Below are positions 1,536 to 14,998 of a stretch of DNA of 51,884 nt, piece after piece (the stretch's first letter is position 1; each line of letters opens with the position of its first letter). Source of the DNA: Methanoregula sp. Lineage in GTDB: Archaea; Halobacteriota; Methanomicrobia; Methanomicrobiales; Methanospirillaceae. The position numbers were made by a program, and so were the translations under genes. The stretch lies in the NCBI GenBank assembly GCA_026394655.1, contig JAPKXU010000063.1:1-51884 (forward strand), written 5' to 3'. The notes under the pieces were generated by a model that was given only the letters and a program-made list of their open reading frames with translations, searched no databases and was not told the origin of the DNA.

Positions 1536-1607
1536 CGTGTGAAGGTGCGTTCACAAAATAACAAAACGGGAAAAAATGCGTGACGAAATAACGGTGTGGT
1601 AATTGGT

Positions 1608-1871
1608 ATGAGTTCGGTCCTCCTCGCGATCATCCTTATTGTGGCAATTCTTGCCATCGCGTACTTCTTTGTAAAAAAATTCATGGTACTTCTCGTCAAT
1701 GCGGTACTTGGGCTTATCTTTTTGTTCGTTTTAAATACACTTCACGTCATGCAATGGATCGGCAAGCCGGATCTCGGGTACGACCTTGCGACAATCATCA
1801 TATGTGGAGTCGGCGGATTGCCCGGGGTGCTCGTTCTTGTCCTGTTGAATATCCTCGGGATAACCGTATAG
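1608..1871 (+). CDS. BofA-like (pro-sigmaK processing inhibitor family) membrane protein
   Basis: Small hydrophobic protein MSSVLLAIILIVAILAIAYFFVKKFMVLLVNAVLGLIFLFVLN...GGLPGVLVLVLLNILGI, pattern of archaeal BofA-family proteins. Confidence 0.6.
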   Translation: MSSVLLAIILIVAILAIAYFFVKKFMVLLVNAVLGLIFLFVLNTLHVMQWIGKPDLGYDLATIIICGVGGLPGVLVLVLLNILGITV

Positions 1872-1886
1872 GAAAAAAGTATTTTT

Positions 1887-2585
1887 TTAAAAGACATTTG
1901 CCTCTGAATAGACCATTACCTGGTCCTGTTGGATCTCGTAAGGTTTGATCTCACGGGAGTGGGCGGACATCCGCATCTTCACTACTTCGAGAGCGAGATG
2001 GACGTCCGTGAGATCGCTGGGGCGGATATACCGGAGCAGGATCACCGTATCAGCGAGATACTCGATCAGGGCATGCCGGCTCGAGAAGACATTATCCTTG
2101 TCGGTCTCGGATGTCATCATGATGGTGCACGGTTTGTCCCGCAGACCCTCGATGAACCGGAACATCTCCTGCCGTCTCTCGGAGTCTGTTGGGAACAGGT
2201 CTTCAAAGAGCGAGATGGGATCGATGACCACTCTGCTCGCTTTCACCTCGCTGATCAGGTTCGGGAGCTCGTTTTTGATCCTGTTATTGGCAAGATTGAA
2301 ATCTGTCGGATCGAGCTTAATGACAAAGAGGGCTTTGTTCAGGAACGGGGTGACATCCCAGCCTTTCATTTTCATGTATGTCATGATCCGATCTTCGCGT
2401 TCCTCAAGACTGATGTAGATCACGTGCTCCCCTTTCTTTAACCCGTCCCAGACAAATTCGAGGGAAAATGTGGTCTTTCCGGTACCATAGGTGCCGATGA
2501 TGGCACAGATGCTCCGCTGGATCAACCCTCCCCCGAGCATATCATCAAGCCCGGCGATTCCGACATTGACACGTTCAGCGCTCAT
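1887..2585 (-). CDS. KaiC/RAD55-family RecA-like ATPase (intact Walker A)
   Basis: 232 aa; GLDDMLGGGL and GTYGTGKTTFSLEFVWDGLKKGEHVIYISLEE are KaiC-like; ATGA overlap with upstream ATPase. Confidence 0.8.
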   Translation of the reverse strand: MSAERVNVGIAGLDDMLGGGLIQRSICAIIGTYGTGKTTFSLEFVWDGLKKGEHVIYISLEEREDRIMTYMKMKGWDVTPFLNKALFVIKLDPTDFNLANNRIKNELPNLISEVKASRVVIDPISLFEDLFPTDSERRQEMFRFIEGLRDKPCTIMMTSETDKDNVFSSRHALIEYLADTVILLRYIRPSDLTDVHLALEVVKMRMSAHSREIKPYEIQQDQVMVYSEANVF

Positions 2586-3409
2586 ATGACCACCCGGATG
2601 TTGCTGACCTCAAAACCACCGGTGGCGGAGATCCGTACCGCAAATTTTACGAGATCGTGTTCTTCCAAGTGGGGCATCACTCCCCGGAACTTCTCAAAGT
2701 ACATCACCCGTTGCCGGCGTGCACTCGCACTCTCTTCCCACTTGAAGAGAAGGACTGCATCGGCAATATCGGCAAGTTCCCGTTCCTGGACAGAATCGAG
2801 GATACCCTTACTGAGCAGGAGATAGGTTGTGACGTTCCGCTGTTTTGTCAAACGCTGGATACCCCGGAGGATTCCAGTCAGGTCCGTCCAGAGGTTGGGG
2901 ATGTTCGTCTGGGTGGCAATATCCGTGATCGAATCCAGGATGACGATGCTGTCCGGCTCTGCCGTATTGAAAACTTTGGACACCCGTAAGAAGATATTTT
3001 CCCGGTCTGATCTTTTCTGGAGTCGGGTGAGGGTGTCGCTGCCGCTGTACCATCCGTCAGGTACGATGCTGCGATCGAAATAACAGCTCGACAGGTCTTC
3101 AAACTCTATCGCGGAAATGGATTCGGCAAGTCCGTTGGCAGGAAAAGATTGAATGATCTCGTGTATAACATCCTCTCTCATCCGGGTAAAGGTGACATAC
3201 CGGATCTTTTTCGGCATGATAAGTCCAGGAGGTACAACACCTTTCATAAGCCCGAACGTGTTGACAATCGAACTGTATACAAACTCGTAGTTTCCTGCAC
3301 CCATCTCCCCCAGAAGAAGAATAAGTGACCCGGGAGGAACCCCCCCGTCAAGAATGGGATCCAGTGTTGAGATCCCGGTTGGCATCCTCAGTTGTACGGT
3401 CTCTGGCAT
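2582..3409 (-). CDS. RecA-superfamily/KaiC-like ATPase paralogue with degenerate Walker A (GEMGAGNYE)
   Basis: 275 aa; GISTLDPILDGGVPPGSLILLLGEMGAGNYEFVYSS; DSIVILDSITD Walker B-like. Confidence 0.75.
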   Translation of the reverse strand: MPETVQLRMPTGISTLDPILDGGVPPGSLILLLGEMGAGNYEFVYSSIVNTFGLMKGVVPPGLIMPKKIRYVTFTRMREDVIHEIIQSFPANGLAESISAIEFEDLSSCYFDRSIVPDGWYSGSDTLTRLQKRSDRENIFLRVSKVFNTAEPDSIVILDSITDIATQTNIPNLWTDLTGILRGIQRLTKQRNVTTYLLLSKGILDSVQERELADIADAVLLFKWEESASARRQRVMYFEKFRGVMPHLEEHDLVKFAVRISATGGFEVSNIRVVI

Positions 3410-3639
3410 CTGGCACCCACGTCAAAGGCGATTAATAGGATTCGCAATTGAAACTCTCTTGGATAGTATGATAAAGATATCTGTTCTCTGGGAGAAAAGA
3501 TGATCTTTAATAAATAAATGGACATTTGGCTGATATCAGCACAGCGGGCGTGTTACAAGATCGATCTTTTGTCGAGAGGGAAACTCTTGCAGTTCTCCCC
3601 GTCTGCAAATGCCCCGTTTTTCTTTCCGGAAGTGAGATT

Positions 3640-3660
3640 ATGTAAAACACTATATATAGA
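3640..3660 (+). promoter_or_regulatory. Candidate archaeal TATA box upstream of secretion ATPase
   Basis: AT-rich acactatatataga about 60 nt before the probable ATG at 3718. Confidence 0.4.
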
Positions 3661-3717
3661 ATGATCTCCCGAACTATAATCCGGGAGAACGATATTCTTC
3701 GGGTAGGAATCAGGTAT

Positions 3718-5640
3718 ATGCGAATATCAGATTTTTTTAAGTCCATACGAAAAAAGACCCCGGCACCTCAAACGGAGCATGAAGCATCGGATCTATTCGA
3801 ACCCATACCTGGATCATCTCCTGCAAAGGTATCTGAACTGTCGGGTAACGTAACGGAACCAGAACCTGGATTGGGGGACCTGTTGGAACCGTCGACTGCA
3901 CCATCTCCTGCAAAGGTATCTGAACTGTCGGGTAACGTAACGGAACCAGAACTTGGATTGGGGGACCTGTTGGAACCATCAACCGGACCCGCTCTTGAAA
4001 AAGCACCAGAACCGTCCGTCCCTGTCAAGGAACCCGAAGCACCAGAACCAAAAAAATCTGATTATTCCTACCGGCGATATTTTCAGATCCTCAGAAAAAA
4101 AGAAAAACGCGTCATTGACGAATATGATTTTGAGAAGCATGGACCTCTCGTTGGAGGGGATCTACCAGAAGGCTACACGCTTATTGACCAGTACTGGATC
4201 GACGAGGGGAGATCTCTAGTCTACATCGCGCTCAATAACACAAGCAACCTGATGGAGTATCTCCTCTACGAACCTGTCCTCTCGAATTTCGAATATGAGT
4301 TGCTCGAACGTCTTCACGAGGATCTGCGGGATGTCCTGATCCTGACTTCTGATGAAATCAGAAAGGATCGTAAATTAATTCTTTTAGAAAAGATGATGGG
4401 ACTCATCAATGAATATGGGCTTACTCTCGAACCCCTCACACTCTTTAAGATCGAGTATTACCTTATCCGGAATTTCCTCGGATGGTCCCGTATCGATCCC
4501 CTCATGAAAGATCCCCATCTTGAAGATGTCTCCTGTGATGGGAACCGGATCCCAATTTTTCTCTACCACCGGAAATATCGTAACATCAAGACCAATATTG
4601 CATTTGAAGCTAAAGTCTTAAACTCGCTCGCAATTACCCTTGCACAGCGCTCTGGAAAACACATCTCCACCGGCACTCCGATGCTGGATGCCACACTTCC
4701 TGAGGGCTCACGTCTTCAGCTGACACTGGGCACTGAGATAACAACACGGGGAACCTCCTTTACCATCCGAAAATTCCGGGAAGAACCGTATTCCCCGATC
4801 GAACTGTTAGAGTATGGCACATTCAACTCCGACGAACTCGCCTATTTCTGGCTAGCTATCGAAAACAACAAAAGCCTTCTTTTCATCGGAGGCACTGCAT
4901 CCGGAAAGACAACTTCCTTAAATGCAGTTTCGCTCTTTATCCCCCCTATTGCGAAAGTCGTGAGCATTGAGGATACACGGGAGATTACTCTCTTCCATGA
5001 CAACTGGATCGCGAGTGTGACCCGTGAAGCAATTTCCGAAGGCGGAAACGCGATCACCATGTTTGACCTGTTACGCGCGGCAATGAGACAGCGTCCTGAG
5101 TTCATCCTCGTCGGAGAAGTGAGGGGTGTTGAGGCACAGACACTTTTCCAGGCAATGAACACCGGGCACACTACTTTCTCCACAATGCATGCAGGGAGTG
5201 TCGATGCCGCCATTCACCGTCTCGAGAGTTCCCCATTGAACGTTCCGCGGAATATGATCCAGGCATTAAACATTATCAGCGTGCAGGCTATGATCTTCCA
5301 CGGAACAGAGAGGGTCCGTCGTGTTCAGGAGATTGTGGAGATCGCGGGGGTCGATCCGGGAACCGGCAACCTGCGCGTCAATAATGTTTTTGTATATGAC
5401 CCCATTCACGACCAGTTCGCATACACTGGCAGGTCCCAGATCTACGGAGATATCTCAGCGAAACGCGGCTGGACCCGTGAGAAACTTGATTCTGAAATCA
5501 ATATCCGCAAACAACTCCTTGATGAGATGCGCAAACAGGGTATTATTGATTACATCTCTGCAGCCTCCCTCTTCCATTCCTTCAATATTGATCGGGAAAA
5601 TGTGCTTGCCAATATTTCTGATTTGAAAAAGGTTCTGTAA
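3718..5640 (+). CDS. Type II/IV secretion (VirB11/GspE/ArlI-like) ATPase
   Basis: ORF 3661..5640, internal ATG 3718 preferred; GGTASGKTTSLNAVSLFIPP Walker A, VSIEDTREI, LRAAMRQRPEFILVGEVRGVEAQTLFQAMNTGHTTFSTMHAG Walker B/His box. Confidence 0.92.
   Translation: MRISDFFKSIRKKTPAPQTEHEASDLFEPIPGSSPAKVSELSGNVTEPEPGLGDLLEPSTAPSPAKVSELSGNVTEPELGLGDLLEPSTGPALEKAPEPSVPVKEPEAPEPKKSDYSYRRYFQILRKKEKRVIDEYDFEKHGPLVGGDLPEGYTLIDQYWIDEGRSLVYIALNNTSNLMEYLLYEPVLSNFEYELLERLHEDLRDVLILTSDEIRKDRKLILLEKMMGLINEYGLTLEPLTLFKIEYYLIRNFLGWSRIDPLMKDPHLEDVSCDGNRIPIFLYHRKYRNIKTNIAFEAKVLNSLAITLAQRSGKHISTGTPMLDATLPEGSRLQLTLGTEITTRGTSFTIRKFREEPYSPIELLEYGTFNSDELAYFWLAIENNKSLLFIGGTASGKTTSLNAVSLFIPPIAKVVSIEDTREITLFHDNWIASVTREAISEGGNAITMFDLLRAAMRQRPEFILVGEVRGVEAQTLFQAMNTGHTTFSTMHAGSVDAAIHRLESSPLNVPRNMIQALNIISVQAMIFHGTERVRRVQEIVEIAGVDPGTGNLRVNNVFVYDPIHDQFAYTGRSQIYGDISAKRGWTREKLDSEINIRKQLLDEMRKQGIIDYISAASLFHSFNIDRENVLANISDLKKVL
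3815..3988 (+). repeat. Two-copy tandem repeat, 87-bp unit, in frame within the ATPase N-terminal linker
   Basis: Copies 3815-3901 and 3902-3988, nearly identical; each encodes SPAKVSELSGNVTEPE(P/L)GLGDLLEPST. Confidence 0.92.
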
Positions 5641-7580
5641 TGAAAGTCAGGAATTTTGTAAAAAAATGGATCCAGCGGAATCCCATGCGATACCAGGATC
5701 TTCACAACGATCTGGTAGCTGCACGGGTGGGGATGACTCTTGATGAGTACCTGTGGAGAGCGGTACAGATCGCACTTCTGACCGGTGTCCTGTTTGCGAT
5801 TCTCGGGTTTTTTATCGGGACGTTTATCACCCTCACGATATCAATCGGGGCAGTTGGGATCTATAACATCTTTAATCTCCAGATCCCCACCACGTTCTTT
5901 AATGTCTCCACCCTCGTCTACATTAAATTCTTCAGCAGTCTCGTCGCGTTCATCGTGGGAACTTTCCTTGGCTATACCGTTATCCTCAAATTTCCGGGTA
6001 TCGAGAAGTCGAGCCGTTCGATCAAGATCAACCTGACGCTCCACAACACCGTCGCCTATATGTATGCGATGCGGAAGGGCGGGGCAGAACTGATGGTGAT
6101 CTTCCGTGCCTTGTCCGACAATGCAAACATCTATGGGGAGGTCGCTCTCGAGTTCCGGCAGGTAGTGAGAGATGCAGACTTTTTTGGTTATGACGTCGTC
6201 TCCGCGATGCGCCATCTTACAGAAACAACTCCCTCTGAAAAACTGAAAAACTTCCTTGAAGATCTCCTGTCCATTATTGAGAGCGGGGGAAATATGTCGG
6301 ATTTTTTCGCGAACAGGGTACGGATGTACCAGGAAGAGGCACGATTTGAACAGAAACAGTTTTTAAATATCCTGTCACTCGTTGCTGAATCCTATGTGAC
6401 GCTCTTTGTGGCAGGACCGCTCTTTTTGATCATCATCATGGTGGTGATGGGCATGATGGGGGGTTCTGCCGTCTTCCAGCTCACGATGGTGACCTATGCA
6501 TTTCTCCCGATTGGGTCCGTCATCTTCATCTTATTGATCGACTTGATCTCAATAAAAGCCGAGACTACCGAGCGGTATATGAAGATGAAGGTGCTCCATG
6601 AATATTCCGATGTTCGTGTCGTTCAGAAGTGTGGCGAAGAGGCACACTTTAAACAGTTGAAACGGTATGACCGGATGAGGAACTTCATTCATTTCCTTAG
6701 GCACCCATTCGAGAGTTTTGTGATAAACGTGAACCGTACGTTTTTTGTAACGGTTCCCATTGCCATCCTGTATGCCATCATGGTACTCTGGACGGTTCCT
6801 CACTATGCGAATCTTGAGACGTATATCGATGTAATCGATGATCACCTGATTATCGCGCTGTTGATCGTGCTCATCCCGTATGCCATCTTCTATTCTCTTT
6901 ATGCACGAAAAGTGCTGGCAATCCAGGGGTTGATACCGGATTTTCTTGAGCGGATGGCGGGAATCAACCAAGTGGGACTCACGATTGCCCAAGCTATCGG
7001 GATCATGGTGAACACGAACCTCGGGCTTCTCAGTTACGAGATCAAAAAGATCAAGTGCGACATGGACTGGGGGGCAAATTTTACCGAAGCCCTCATACGG
7101 TTTGAGGAGCGGATCAGTACACCCACGATTGCACGAACGGTCACCCTCATCACAAAAGCGAGCGAGATGAGCGGGCGTATCGGAGAAGTGTTGACGATCG
7201 CCGCGAGCGATGCCAACATGAGTGAAGTGCTGAAAAAAGAGCGCCTTGCCGAGATGTTCATCTACACGGCGATTGTCTATCTCTCGTTTTTGGTATTTAT
7301 CTTTGTGATTGGTGTCCTCACCACTCAGTTCCTGCCTGTCCTTGCTAATGTAAATACAGCAGGTGTTCCGGCAACTGGAGCGTTAAAAGGACTCGGACAG
7401 GTTCCGGTTAAGACGATCGGGCGTCTTTTGTACCATGCGTGTCTCGTGCAGGCAATCTTCTCGGGACTTATCGCGGGGCAGATGGGTGAATCTTCAATCT
7501 CTGCCGGTGTCAAACATTCATGTGTTCTCCTCATCATCTCGCTTATCACATTCAATTATTTCCTCGTAGTGCCTGGTTGA
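5640..7580 (+). CDS. Type II secretion system F / TadC / ArlJ-like membrane platform protein
   Basis: 646 aa with two T2SSF-like repeats and TM clusters; start overlaps the ATPase stop (TAATG). Confidence 0.88.
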   Translation: MKVRNFVKKWIQRNPMRYQDLHNDLVAARVGMTLDEYLWRAVQIALLTGVLFAILGFFIGTFITLTISIGAVGIYNIFNLQIPTTFFNVSTLVYIKFFSSLVAFIVGTFLGYTVILKFPGIEKSSRSIKINLTLHNTVAYMYAMRKGGAELMVIFRALSDNANIYGEVALEFRQVVRDADFFGYDVVSAMRHLTETTPSEKLKNFLEDLLSIIESGGNMSDFFANRVRMYQEEARFEQKQFLNILSLVAESYVTLFVAGPLFLIIIMVVMGMMGGSAVFQLTMVTYAFLPIGSVIFILLIDLISIKAETTERYMKMKVLHEYSDVRVVQKCGEEAHFKQLKRYDRMRNFIHFLRHPFESFVINVNRTFFVTVPIAILYAIMVLWTVPHYANLETYIDVIDDHLIIALLIVLIPYAIFYSLYARKVLAIQGLIPDFLERMAGINQVGLTIAQAIGIMVNTNLGLLSYEIKKIKCDMDWGANFTEALIRFEERISTPTIARTVTLITKASEMSGRIGEVLTIAASDANMSEVLKKERLAEMFIYTAIVYLSFLVFIFVIGVLTTQFLPVLANVNTAGVPATGALKGLGQVPVKTIGRLLYHACLVQAIFSGLIAGQMGESSISAGVKHSCVLLIISLITFNYFLVVPG

Positions 7581-7694: not shown

Positions 7695-7850
7695 ATGTGT
7701 ACCGTAGGTGGACCCGTGGATATCGATCTCCCACCGGATCGCGTAATTGGAAAGGATTACCGGTGCAAGGAATGCGGCGAACGGTTCAAAGGGATTGGAA
7801 AACGACCGATGTGTCCCAGCTGCCAGTCAGAGTCTGTTACTGAACTATGA
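7695..7850 (+). CDS. Small zinc-ribbon protein (51 aa), not in ORF track
   Basis: MCTVGGPVDIDLPPDRVIGKDYRCKECGERFKGIGKRPMCPSCQSESVTEL; two CxxC pairs; ATGA overlap with the next gene. Confidence 0.7.
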   Translation: MCTVGGPVDIDLPPDRVIGKDYRCKECGERFKGIGKRPMCPSCQSESVTEL

Positions 7851-8320
7851 AGTATCCCCTCGAAGACGAGATGCTGCTTGTCAGGGGAAGCAGTTCTTTT
7901 TTACTTGCTGGCAGGGTAAAGACCTGCTTTTCGCTCTGTATTGAGACAACTCATGATGAATACTGCCAGACGCTCTCTTCCAGTGATCTGGTTGTCGTTT
8001 CTGCACCGGAAGGAGGGGAATTGGAACCGGCTGTGATGCTCATCGAATTGGTCCGGACGTACCGCATGCCGTTACTAGTACTCCCGAAGGATCACCCGGG
8101 ATCGCGAAGGATCGCGTACGTGGTTTCGGCAGGTGCGGAGATCCAGACCAACTGCGCCATCATCAGGGGGACGCATCCCGAGCAGCACCTGATCTGTGCA
8201 TCAGATGAACTATCCGGTTTACATTTGCAGGGATATGGGGGCGGTGTCGAAATCACCCCGGATCCAGAAAATCTGGTGGTCACGCGGGTAATGTGCGGGA
8301 TAAAAGCGGAGTCGAAATGA
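7847..8320 (+). CDS. Conserved hypothetical protein (157 aa)
   Basis: ORF coupled by ATGA to the zinc-ribbon gene; Rossmann-like hydrophobic pattern. Confidence 0.55.
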   Translation: MKYPLEDEMLLVRGSSSFLLAGRVKTCFSLCIETTHDEYCQTLSSSDLVVVSAPEGGELEPAVMLIELVRTYRMPLLVLPKDHPGSRRIAYVVSAGAEIQTNCAIIRGTHPEQHLICASDELSGLHLQGYGGGVEITPDPENLVVTRVMCGIKAESK

Positions 8321-8620
8321 AAACCGACCTGATGTCCGCGTGCTACAAATATTCAGCGGATTAAAAACAGCGAAATACATTTTCTCGGGAATCTCGTTTC
8401 TCCCTCCCCTCCTCCCCTTCAATAGCAGAGAATATCCAGAGTCTCAATGGTGTAAATTACAGCACCATGTTGACCCGCCATAGCGAGTATCTATCGGGAG
8501 TCTCTGGATTTTTTGCCGGGACCGGTTCCGGGTATTCTCATTGGGAAACCCTGCACCAGTGTTTACCCCTTGAAATACCCCGATCATTCTACGAATTGCC
8601 CAGCACAGGTCTCCTTCGCA

Positions 8621-8679
8621 TTACACCTGTAACGTGGTCATAAATCCGGTGTAAAAGGCAAATAACAATACATATAAGG
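8621..8679 (+). promoter_or_regulatory. Candidate atp operon promoter with upstream inverted repeat TTACACC-N20-GGTGTAA and TATA box
   Basis: TTACACC 8621-8627, GGTGTAA 8648-8654, tacatataag at 8669-8678, ATG at 8722. Confidence 0.5.
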
Positions 8680-8721
8680 CTTTTTTTACCAAATATTGTA
8701 GTGCCGTGAGAGGAGGGTTGG

Positions 8722-9051
8722 ATGAAAACTGAGGTCCTACAAGACATCAAGAAAACAGAAGAAGAGTACCAATCGATGATCAGTGCGGCTCAGGATGAGA
8801 AGAAGCGCAAACGATCTCAGGCTGAGCTTGAAGCTGATAATCTGATTACCAAAGCGCAGAGCAATGCAGAACAGTATAAAACGCTGAAACTGGAAGAAGC
8901 ACGGCACCAGGCAGCTCTTAAGCACGCTGAAATTATGACTGCGGGCAGGCAACGCGCAGCGGCAATCCAGGAAAAAGGAAAGAAGAACCTTTCAAAGGCG
9001 GTGCAACTGCTGGTTTCGCGGTTTAAGGAGCAGCTGCATGTTAACGCCTAG
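8722..9051 (+). CDS. ahaH: A-type ATP synthase subunit H
   Basis: Coiled-coil 109 aa first gene of the operon; gaggagg RBS. Confidence 0.8.
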   Translation: MKTEVLQDIKKTEEEYQSMISAAQDEKKRKRSQAELEADNLITKAQSNAEQYKTLKLEEARHQAALKHAEIMTAGRQRAAAIQEKGKKNLSKAVQLLVSRFKEQLHVNA

Positions 9052-11008
9052 GCAAATGAGCCGGCTGCTTATTGTTGCATCAAAAGACCGCATGGGTACG
9101 GTTGTAAATGAGCTTTATCGCCGTCATCTGTTTCACATCGAGGATTTTGTTGATCAGGCGAGTCCTGAGTATGAAGGTTTTAAGATCGGAACTCCTCTGG
9201 CAGGGGCAACCGAAGCTGCAACCGACCTCGTGAATGTCCGGGCGATTGAGAACACGTTCTCGATCGAGAGCGAAGCCATTGTGGCGAAGACGCGAGCCGC
9301 CCAGACGGATATGGTGGGAAGGATCGAGCATGAACTTCCTGCGATAACTAAAGAGGTTGAAGCGCTTACCGGCAGGCGTGCCCGTCTCGAGGCTGGCATA
9401 AAAGAGAATGAGCAGAAGATCGCCGAGATTACCCCATTTGCCAGCATTCCGCTGGACTTGGATCTCTATTATGGATATTCCCGGTTCGTTGTTTTTGCCG
9501 GCTATGTCGCACGCGATGTATCGATCGCAGTTCCGAACGAGAAGTTCTATCTTAAGGGCAAGAGCCAGAATTTCATTGTTGTGGTCGCGCCGTTAGAACA
9601 CCGGGCTGAGGTTGAACGGGTATTACAGGAGGCGTCGTACCAGGCAGTTACGATCCCGGCAGAGTCAGGCACTCCCCAAAGCCGCATTGACTTCTATTCC
9701 GGACAGATCTCGGCAGCAAAAAAAGAGATCGAAGAGATCCAGGTAAAGATCGACGGGATCAAGCAGAAGCACGCGGAGTTCCTTGTTGCGTGTGAAGAGA
9801 TCCTGAAATGCAAGGTTGAGCAGACCGAAGCCCCGTTGCGGTTCGCGACTACAAACGAGACATTCGTTGCGGAGGGTTGGGTGCCCACAGAGTCTGTCGC
9901 GGAAGTGACGCAGGCACTTGAACAGGCAACCGGGGGAAAGATCTTTGTCAAAGAACTTTCCGTCGATTACGAGCATGATTCCGTTCCGGTGGAGTACGAC
10001 AACCCGTCGTTTGCCAAACCGGCACAGATGCTCATGGACGTCTACTCCCGACCGAAATACACGGAACTTGACCCGACACTAATGGTTTCGATCGTATTTC
10101 CCATCTTCTTCGGGCTGATCCTCGGGGATGTGGGGTACGGGCTGCTCCTTCTCGTGATGTCCTTTGGGCTCCGGAAGTTTATGACCGGGGACGAAGGCAC
10201 CATGTTGCTTAAAGTGCTCCGGAATGCAAGCATATCGAGCATTTTCTTTGGGTTGCTTTACAGCGAATGTTTAGGATTCGCCCTCCCTTGGAGTCCGATC
10301 ATGTTCAGCCGGCACCTTAAGATCGGTGCCCATGCAGTCGGACATGGTCCAGAAGTTCCCGAACTCATGATCCTTGCGATCTGGATCGGTCTTTTGCATA
10401 TTACCCTCGGAAGGGTGCTGGGCATGGCAAACCATGCACGACAGGATCATGGCGCTCACCGGACAAAAGCGATCCTCGCAAACGCCGGCTGGATCTGTGT
10501 CATGTGGGGGATCCTCATGGTCATCTGGTCGATGGTGCCGATGCCGTATATGCCGAATTTCACTACATTGCCAAAGCTTGTTTTGACTTTAAATATTACA
10601 GCACTCATTGGTGTTGTGATGCTTGTCGCCGGAGTCCTGTTCATTGCACGGGAGTCTGCGCTTGAAATTGTTGAACTTCCAACAATCATCAGTCACGTGC
10701 TCTCGTATGCACGTATCGTGGCTGTGGGACTATCTTCAGTGGCAATTGCGATGGTGATCAACTTTATCGCCATCGGGATGCTCATAGAACCCCAGCTGAA
10801 GAGCCTCACGATCATCGGGGTGCTCTTTATTGTCATGGGTGTGGTCGTTTTCCTGATCGGGCATGCGCTGAACCTGGCGCTTGGCATTCTCGGGGGCGGT
10901 CTCCACTCTATCAGGTTGCATTATGTCGAATTCTTCACCAAGTTCTATAAAGGTGGAGGCAAGAAATACAGTCCGTTTGGACTTAAGAGAAGATTTACGG
11001 AGGATTGA
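9038..11008 (+). CDS. atpI: A-type ATP synthase subunit I (a)
   Basis: 656 aa; FPIFFGLILGDVGYGLLLL and HVLSYARIVAVGLSSVAIA typical of subunit a/I. Confidence 0.95.
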   Translation: MLTPRQMSRLLIVASKDRMGTVVNELYRRHLFHIEDFVDQASPEYEGFKIGTPLAGATEAATDLVNVRAIENTFSIESEAIVAKTRAAQTDMVGRIEHELPAITKEVEALTGRRARLEAGIKENEQKIAEITPFASIPLDLDLYYGYSRFVVFAGYVARDVSIAVPNEKFYLKGKSQNFIVVVAPLEHRAEVERVLQEASYQAVTIPAESGTPQSRIDFYSGQISAAKKEIEEIQVKIDGIKQKHAEFLVACEEILKCKVEQTEAPLRFATTNETFVAEGWVPTESVAEVTQALEQATGGKIFVKELSVDYEHDSVPVEYDNPSFAKPAQMLMDVYSRPKYTELDPTLMVSIVFPIFFGLILGDVGYGLLLLVMSFGLRKFMTGDEGTMLLKVLRNASISSIFFGLLYSECLGFALPWSPIMFSRHLKIGAHAVGHGPEVPELMILAIWIGLLHITLGRVLGMANHARQDHGAHRTKAILANAGWICVMWGILMVIWSMVPMPYMPNFTTLPKLVLTLNITALIGVVMLVAGVLFIARESALEIVELPTIISHVLSYARIVAVGLSSVAIAMVINFIAIGMLIEPQLKSLTIIGVLFIVMGVVVFLIGHALNLALGILGGGLHSIRLHYVEFFTKFYKGGGKKYSPFGLKRRFTED

Positions 11009-11010
11009 AA

Positions 11011-11274
11011 ATGGTAGATGTTCCAGTAGCAGCAGCAATTACAGATGTTGCATTAATGAACGCATCGCAGATGGGAATGAAGGCGCTTGGCGCCGGTATG
11101 GCAGTCGGACTGACTGGCATTGGAGCAGGAGTCGCCGAGATGGCAATTGGTTCTGCAGCAGTCGGTGCAACTGCTGAAAATAAAGATGTGTTCGGGCTTG
11201 TCCTGTTGCTCACCGTCATTCCGGAAACCATCGTTATCTTCGGGCTTGTCGTTGCGTTGCTGCTCATATTCTAA
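11011..11274 (+). CDS. atpK: A-type ATP synthase subunit K (c/proteolipid)
   Basis: Two-TM hairpin, GAGMAVGLTGIGAGVAEMAIGSAAVGA...LTVIPETIVIFGLVVALLL; ATG 11011 (ORF track extends to TTG 11005). Confidence 0.93.
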   Translation: MVDVPVAAAITDVALMNASQMGMKALGAGMAVGLTGIGAGVAEMAIGSAAVGATAENKDVFGLVLLLTVIPETIVIFGLVVALLLIF

Positions 11275-11288
11275 GCGTGGGGCAGACA

Positions 11289-11867
11289 ATGGGACTGGAA
11301 GCCGTTGTTGAAGAGATCAGGGATAAGGGCAAAACAGAGGCAGAAAAGATCCGTGCCGAATCAAAACTGGAAGTGGACAATATCCTCCTGGAAGCCAACC
11401 GGCGGGTTGGAGAGATCAAGCTCGCTGCGGAAGCTGACTATGAGAAGCAGAAGAGCCATCTCATCGCACAGGAAGGATCAGCGGCAAACCTGCTCGTGAA
11501 GCGTGAGCTCTTAAACACGCAGAAGGCACTGCTGGTGCAAGTCTATGATACCACCCGCACGGAGATCGCCAATCTCCCTGAAAGCTTCCATCGGGAAGCC
11601 ATTAAATTACTCCTTACCGAGGTGAAAAAAGAGGTTCCCGATGGGAAGATCCAATGCAATGCCCGTGATGTGGCAACACTGAAGTCGATTGTTGCCGGGC
11701 ATCCGGAATTTTCCGGGTTCACCATCGGGGCTCCTGTTGATATCGATGGGGGAATTATCGCCGAAGGTAAAGGGGGCGAGTTGCAGGTTGACTACAGTTA
11801 CCGCACATTCCTTGACAAAGTGTGGGAATCAAGGTTGAAGGATGCATCAGATATCCTGTTTGGCTGA
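11289..11867 (+). CDS. atpE: A-type ATP synthase subunit E
   Basis: MGLEAVVEEIRDKGKTEAEKIRAESKLEVDNIL...; operon position. Confidence 0.92.
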   Translation: MGLEAVVEEIRDKGKTEAEKIRAESKLEVDNILLEANRRVGEIKLAAEADYEKQKSHLIAQEGSAANLLVKRELLNTQKALLVQVYDTTRTEIANLPESFHREAIKLLLTEVKKEVPDGKIQCNARDVATLKSIVAGHPEFSGFTIGAPVDIDGGIIAEGKGGELQVDYSYRTFLDKVWESRLKDASDILFG

Positions 11868-13241: not shown

Positions 13242-14998
13242 AGAACCAGAAGACAAAGGACCAAAAACAAGGAGTCCTCAAAAGAATCGCCGGACCTGTA
13301 GTGACGGCAGTCAATCTTGACGCCCACATGTATGATGTGGTGAAAGTAGGTAAAGAAGCACTGATGGGAGAAGTCATCAAGATCCAGGGAGACAATGTCA
13401 TCATCCAGGTGTATGAGGATACATCTGGTATCAAGCCGGGTGAACCGGTAGTGAACACCGGATTGTCCCTCTCTGTTGAACTTGGTCCAGGACTTCTCAC
13501 GAGCATCTATGATGGGATCCAGCGTCCCCTTGCCGTGCTTGTGGAGAAGATGGGCAACTTTATCGAGCGCGGTGTTACAGCGCCCGGGCTCTCCCATGAC
13601 AAGAAATGGGGGTTTAAACCGCTCGTAAAAGCCGGTGACAAGGTCCAAGCCGGTTCCATCATTGGCGAAGTGCAGGAGACGAACATCGTTCACAAGGTAA
13701 TGATCCCCCCGACCGCAAAGCCGGGAGTCATCAAGGCGATGAAGAGCGGGGAGTTCACCGTTGATGAGATCGTTTGCACCCTTGAGGACGGCAGGGAATT
13801 TCCGATGATCCAGCGCTGGCCCGTACGGGTGCCGCGCCCTGTCATGGAGAAGATGAACCCGACCATCCCGCTGATCACTGGTCAGCGTATTCTTGATGGT
13901 CTCTTTCCCATTGCGAAAGGCGGGACTGCAGCTATTCCCGGTCCGTTCGGGAGCGGGAAGACCGTTACGCAGCAGCAGCTGGCAAAGTGGAGTGATGCGG
14001 AGATCGTGGTCTACATCGGTTGCGGCGAACGCGGCAACGAGATGACCGAAGTGTTAACCGAGTTCCCGCACCTTGAAGACCCTAAGTCAGGCAAACCGCT
14101 CATGGAGCGGACGGTCCTTATCGCGAATACTTCGAACATGCCGGTCGCTGCCCGTGAAGCTTCGGTGTACACCGGTATTACCATCGCCGAGTACTTCCGT
14201 GATATGGGGTATGATGTCTCGTTAATGGCAGACTCAACCTCACGGTGGGCGGAAGCGATGCGTGAGATCTCCTCGCGTCTCGAAGAGATGCCCGGAGAAG
14301 AAGGATACCCGGCATACCTTGCCGCACGTCTTTCTGAGTTCTACGAGCGTGCCGGATTGGTCAAAACCTTAAACGGGGCTCGTGGGTCAGTGTCGGTTAT
14401 CGGGGCAGTGTCTCCACCAGGTGGTGACTTCTCAGAACCCGTTACGCAGAACACGCTGCGTATCGTGAAGGTCTTCTGGGCGCTCGATGCAAAACTCTCC
14501 CAGCGCAGGCATTTCCCGGCGATCAACTGGCTGAACTCGTACTCGCTGTACCTGGACAGCCTCCAGGACTGGTACGACAAGGAAGTCTCCCCAGACTGGA
14601 ACCAGATCCGGTCATGGGCGATGGGAGTCCTCCAGAAAGAGGCAGAACTCCAGGAAATCGTCCAACTGGTCGGTTCGGATGCGTTGCCAGAGACGGAGCA
14701 GCTGACAATTGAGATTGCCCGTATGATCCGTGAGATCTTCCTCCAGCAGAATGCCTACGATGCGGTGGACACGTTCTGTGACATGAAGAAACAGTACGAC
14801 ATGATGAAATCGATCCGCCTCTATTCCGATCTTGCGTATGCCGCACAGGTTGCTGGCGTGAGCCCGGCGCAGATCATCGCGATCAAAGCGAAGAACGAAC
14901 TGCCGCAGATCAAGTTCATCAAGGACTATAAGCCCGAGCTTGCGAAGATCGAGAAGGATATGGATGCTGAATTCAATGCACTGAGGTCGGCAGCATGA
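13232..14998 (+). CDS. atpA: A-type ATP synthase catalytic subunit A (GTG start)
   Basis: 588 aa; P-loop [27 protein letters not shown]. Confidence 0.98.

Follow-up and report, generated by a model that had tools for sequence, protein, structure and literature searches.

Previously, the archaellum core has been described as a combination of a KaiC-fold protein (ArlH), a VirB11-type motor (ArlI) and a TadC-type platform (ArlJ). ArlH binds ATP, forms hexamers and stimulates ArlI, and a switching role in assembly and rotation has been proposed for it (PMC8978795). Where ArlH came from, and how a KaiC-type switch was acquired by such a motor, have been called unknown (PMC9087265). Archaeal type IV pilus modules, including that of AfGspE, likewise pair a motor gene with a TadC gene, and their pilins are often encoded elsewhere. 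Makarova et al. 2016 (PMC4858521), who describe these modules, also mention in one sentence KaiC genes of arCOG01172 and arCOG01173 near VirB11/TadC operons of Methanomicrobia. The present study concerns the window, i.e., the whole stretch of 51,884 nucleotides analysed here, from a Methanoregula sp. genome (2.26 Mb, 82% complete). It has the same motor-TadC gene pair, with a motor of the same group, and its pilins are likewise encoded elsewhere in the genome. It differs in having a dedicated, divergent pair of KaiC genes (KaiC1 and KaiC2), and the four genes form a real conserved unit.

An initial annotation had described two overlapping RecA-fold ATPases, one intact and one degenerate, lying back to back with a VirB11-like ATPase and a T2SSF platform, and all four genes were recovered with the boundaries it had assigned within positions 1887-7580 (Table 1). 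KaiC1 scored 172 bits against Pfam KaiC and 348 bits against the NCBIfam model KaiC_arch_3 (TIGR03880), above the curated cut-off of 249. KaiC2 reached just 39 bits against Pfam KaiC, a match mostly to its first 30 residues. The corresponding scores were 121 bits (T2SSE) for the motor and 98 bits (T2SSF, two copies) for the platform. The KaiC2 and KaiC1 genes share a 4-nt overlap, ATGA, and the motor and platform genes overlap by TAATG; the TadC-type platform gene adjoins the motor gene, as in type IV pilus systems. The two pairs are divergent on opposite strands, and both promoters are presumably located in the intergenic region between them. A sigma-70-type promoter scan, a model unsuited to archaea, gave no matches above chance. 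Reading the sequence directly, we noticed a TATA-like element, ACTATATATAG, about 60 nt upstream of another ATG, at position 3718, and translation of the motor may in fact begin at this codon; homologues begin aligning at about residue 30-150 of the annotated motor ORF. The N-terminal extension of the motor, which is disordered-looking, also contains two tandem 87-nt copies that are 87% identical.

Table 1. Coordinates of the features discussed, in the window unless another locus is named
Feature	Positions	Strand	Description
BofA-like gene	1596-1871	+	BofA family membrane protein adjoining KaiC1
KaiC1	1887-2585	-	232 aa, single-domain KaiC-like ATPase, TIGR03880/KaiC_arch_3; active-site residues kept
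KaiC2	2582-3409	-	275 aa, KaiC fold, apparent conserved pseudo-ATPase
Divergent intergenic region	3410-3660	.	about 250 bases, separating the two divergent gene pairs
Motor	3661-5640	+	VirB11/GspE-type secretion ATPase, AfGspE type IV pilus kind; N-terminal extension variable
Tandem 87-nt copies	3789-3962	+	inside the N-terminal extension of the motor
Platform	5640-7580	+	TadC/ArlJ-like protein, two T2SSF domains
Zinc-ribbon-like ORF	7695-7850	+	51 aa
157-aa protein gene	7847-8320	+	follows the pilus unit, precedes the A-type ATP synthase
Second pilus motor locus (L035, contig C41)	2239-8734		window genome
Putative prepilin peptidase (L035)	2239-3429	-	
f6 pilin (L165)	3598-4176		archaellin-family pilin after TadC
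f6 pilin (L166)	3421-4014		archaellin-family pilin after TadC
f6 pilin (L245)	6528-7115		archaellin-family pilin after TadC
f6 pilin (L263)	13456-14043		archaellin-family pilin after TadC
Four KaiC-like genes (L149, family f9)	8310-10999	-	consecutive, no motor
PAS-DUF835 gene (L152, family f18)	9849-11417	-	adjoins the KaiC2-KaiC1 pair on its upstream side

The proposal of the initial annotation that the KaiC pair and the motor go together is borne out by their linkage and loss in relatives. Motor and KaiC2 stand head to head in all 43 genomes compared across the order Methanomicrobiales, with a gap below 1 kb in 40 of them. Among 108 genomes of the family, KaiC1 was found in 83 and KaiC2 in 84. 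Scoring presence of the KaiC pair against the platform orthologue gave 81 genomes with both, 21 with neither, four with KaiC only and two with the platform only (Fisher p 2e-16, a value that overstates independence as the genomes are related). The two platform-only genomes (G041 and G032) break off at a contig edge where the KaiC genes would follow and were ruled out as true exceptions; in the four KaiC-only genomes, the KaiC genes lie less than 2 kb from the contig start.

In most sampled genera, the recurring order is BofA, KaiC1, KaiC2, motor, TadC, the gene for a conserved 157-aa protein and the A-type ATP synthase. In loss genomes, BofA (where recognised) is followed directly by the 157-aa protein gene and the synthase (L247, L248 and L250-L255), with about 290 bases between BofA and the 157-aa protein gene in one of these genomes (G058). 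Presence and absence of the unit require at least four changes on a tree of a neighbouring ATP synthase subunit, three of them forced by well supported branches, and joint loss of all four genes with retention of the flanking genes was found in several lineages. Since the four genes vanish together while their neighbours stay, the unit consists of exactly these four.

Three candidate associations were rejected. The gene for the 157-aa protein was ruled out as a fifth member by its retention in loss genomes, the BofA-like gene by its retention in G058, G101 and G103, and a functional tie to the downstream A-type ATP synthase operon by the persistence of the synthase when the unit is lost. The BofA-like protein of the window scored 47 bits, and its gene occupies the same position in many relatives. 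The 157-aa protein has invariant motifs that include RGTHP and HPG and gave a model with pLDDT 92; it had no Pfam or NCBIfam match, and its best PDB fold match had an E of 0.28. Its start shares an ATGA overlap with a small zinc-ribbon-like ORF (CxxC..CxxC).

In a wider phylum sample of 246 genomes, 119 scored above the TIGR03880 cut-off; of the 185 genomes of the class, 138 carry KaiC2. All 12 order genomes of the phylum sample that have no KaiC1 also have no close motor homologue (best match no better than about 1e-150). The KaiC1 carriers of the order have one at 1e-216 or better, genus g24 excepted; there, pair and motor lie apart at two loci (L162 and L231) and together in two genomes (G124 and G134). 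The expected KaiC-motor linkage is complete within the order save for some g24 genomes, but it does not extend to all carriers outside, and the outcome that the initial annotation had named as refuting its reading is thus observed in part. Two families outside the order (f14 and f18) have the KaiC pair divergent from the motor, as in the window (L147 and L152). Two others (f9 and f23) have the pair with no adjacent motor, and families judged haloarchaea-like from their genome size and long open frames have KaiC1 alone, so the pair is able to act without a linked motor. One f9 locus (L149) has four consecutive KaiC-like genes, encoding KaiC1, KaiC2, a 186-aa KaiC fragment-like protein and a further KaiC.

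The distinction between an intact and a degenerate ATPase holds across homologues. In KaiC1, the P-loop lysine (K37) and the Walker B aspartate (D122) are kept in 72 of 72 homologues, and Glu-Glu at 61-62 in 59 of 72, with conservative changes in the others. It aligns to both the CI and CII domains of cyanobacterial KaiC, sharing Walker A, Walker B and Glu-Glu. At the position of the KaiC Ser-Thr, which we take to be the CII phosphosites, KaiC1 has a CI-like Glu-Tyr (Glu175 in 72/72, Tyr176 in 71/72). In contrast to the KaiC clock autokinase, KaiC1 thus has neither the double domain nor the CII Ser/Thr phosphosites; KaiC2 is also single-domain and is without the residues of a normal ATPase. 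Specifically, the P-loop lysine is kept in one of 78 KaiC2 homologues, and the Glu-Glu site is Thr/Ser-Arg/Lys in 76 of 78, with Glu in none. Yet Trp174, Gly183, Asp217, Trp224, Arg234 and Phe241 are invariant in the same set. Because other residues remain invariant where the catalytic ones are lost, KaiC2 is, judging by its residues, a conserved pseudo-ATPase and not a product of decay. Its predicted monomer model (pLDDT 85) found its best fold match in the KaiC CI domain (4tl7).

Neither protein is ArlH. KaiC1 scored 57 bits and KaiC2 26 bits against the ArlH model, for which the cut-off is 215. On the KaiC tree, KaiC2 forms one clade (support 99), KaiC1 groups with haloarchaea-like TIGR03880 proteins, and ArlH, represented by only four rows, stands apart on a long branch (support 100). 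The term "ArlH-like" used in the initial annotation is therefore apt by analogy only.

We consider it likely that the four genes constitute a type IV pilus core in which the motor is under the control of a KaiC1/KaiC2 assembly, as ArlI is under that of ArlH, an arrangement that would have arisen independently. Pilins encoded elsewhere in the window genome would be assembled by the TadC platform together with the motor ATPase, which belongs to a family of hexamers. KaiC1 and KaiC2, whose genes overlap, are probably made from one message; co-expression of the pair with the motor is uncertain because the two lie on opposite strands. By analogy with ArlH on ArlI, we infer that KaiC1 and KaiC2 would form a mixed KaiC-fold hetero-oligomer seated on the motor. 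KaiC1 would bind ATP and hydrolyse it slowly, and KaiC2, probably unable to bind or hydrolyse ATP, would be a fixed adaptor contacting either the motor or the ring of KaiC1. In this way KaiC1, through its nucleotide state, could gate filament assembly by licensing or timing it. Such gating would resemble the action of ArlH on ArlI, but the KaiC proteins involved belong to other branches and lack phosphosites of the KaiC type.

Archaeal KaiC proteins in general have been proposed as signalling hubs. A signalling role without docking is the main rival to the model of KaiC seated on the motor: the pair would control the expression of pilus or other genes, and the divergent layout would reflect shared regulation. 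Besides the layout itself, the KaiC1 orthologues that occur without a motor in f9 and the haloarchaea-like families fit such a role. So does the sensor-like gene at the f18 locus (L152), where a PAS-DUF835 protein, possibly a sensor input, is encoded directly upstream of the KaiC2-KaiC1 pair. Furthermore, CirA, a KaiC homologue of Haloferax, influences cell shape as well as the control of motility genes (PMC13286277). However, what is jointly lost is exactly the pair, the motor and the platform, with no transcription factor among them, and we regard a hub acting without docking as rather unlikely.

The motor itself belongs among the type IV pilus motors of AfGspE type. Its nearest solved structure is AfGspE (2OAP; 470 bits versus 284 bits for ArlI), and on the motor tree the KaiC-linked motors cluster with AfGspE and a further two paralogue groups, and ArlI is separated from them (support 100). 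One of these paralogue groups sits in pilin clusters. The other is represented in the window genome on contig C41 (L035), where a second pilus motor, which falls in its own group on the tree, lies with a split TadC beside a prepilin-peptidase-like gene. This putative peptidase was picked by eye from its DIRDRRVP and GGAD motifs. A machine of pilus type had been proposed in the initial annotation, and this placement agrees with it; the machine need no longer be called "unassigned", since the motor is of the AfGspE type and pilins lie directly downstream in relatives.

The search around the locus within the window gave neither a pilin nor a prepilin peptidase, as had been noted earlier, and in most genomes of the order examined no pilin is linked to the motor. 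Within the family of the window genome, too, no motor-linked pilin with a class III signal peptide was seen. The window genome has seven Pilin_N pilin genes, all unlinked to the locus, and several unlinked pilins also occur in the carrier genomes sampled. Comparing pilin counts between loss and carrier genomes, in which other pilus motors are present, did not single out a pilin partner. For the system as a whole, however, the absence does not hold. In one family of the same order (f6), a pilin with an archaellin N-terminus, FTGLEAAIVLIAFVVVASVF, immediately follows TadC (L165, L166, L245, L259, L260, L263 and L265), and both of the two tested gave a Pfam Arch_flagellin match. These seven pilins form one clade (support 100) near the archaellins of f6 itself; hence, the TadC-adjacent site seems to have taken up a copy of an archaellin gene in this family. 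In f14 and f18, Pilin_N proteins come immediately after TadC. The missing local pilin is thus a trait of this lineage and not of the system.

The same observations bear on a reading in which the motor, controlled by the KaiC pair, powers secretion or a short pseudopilus instead of a surface filament. A platform and a motor alone do not distinguish a pilus from secretion, and a linked pilin is absent in most order genomes, that of the window included; nevertheless, the pilins that adjoin TadC in three families and the several unlinked pilins of sampled carriers make this reading very improbable. That the unit is an archaellum, with KaiC1 or KaiC2 as ArlH, the motor as ArlI and the platform as ArlJ, is almost certainly wrong: among named families, the motor does match the ArlI model best (384 bits) and the f6 pilin adjoining TadC is of the archaellin family, but that score lies below the cut-off of 550, the real ArlI genes of relatives reach about 700 bits as separate genes elsewhere in the genome, and the motor and KaiC trees set the unit apart from ArlI and ArlH. 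A second archaellum was likewise ruled out by these scores and trees. Pfam scans of selected neighbours recognised none of the stator genes (ArlF, ArlG, ArlC/D/E) and no ArlX.

Returning to the pilus motor under KaiC control, the unit differs from the archaellum core in having two KaiC proteins of other branches, one of them an apparent pseudo-ATPase, and a motor that is not ArlI; relatives carry the real ArlI and ArlH separately. The arCOG01172 and arCOG01173 genes mentioned by Makarova et al. may be KaiC1 and KaiC2 of the window, a putative correspondence. In the part of the literature examined, we found no account of the pseudo-ATPase partner, the four-gene co-loss or the archaellin-like pilin adjoining the motor.

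On balance, we lean towards the view that a type IV pilus motor independently gained an ArlH-like module, in which an active KaiC is joined by a dedicated pseudo-KaiC and which has been co-inherited with the motor across Methanomicrobiales and two outside families. If so, two recruitments of KaiC to a pilus-type motor would be known, that of ArlH in the archaellum being the other. A second KaiC-motor pairing, in a non-archaellum pilus and with one pseudo-ATPase partner, would provide an independent case for comparison as well as a testable protein pair. It would also offer a route to the partners of other orphan KaiC proteins. Our findings suggest that KaiC-type control may recur as a solution for archaeal filament motors.
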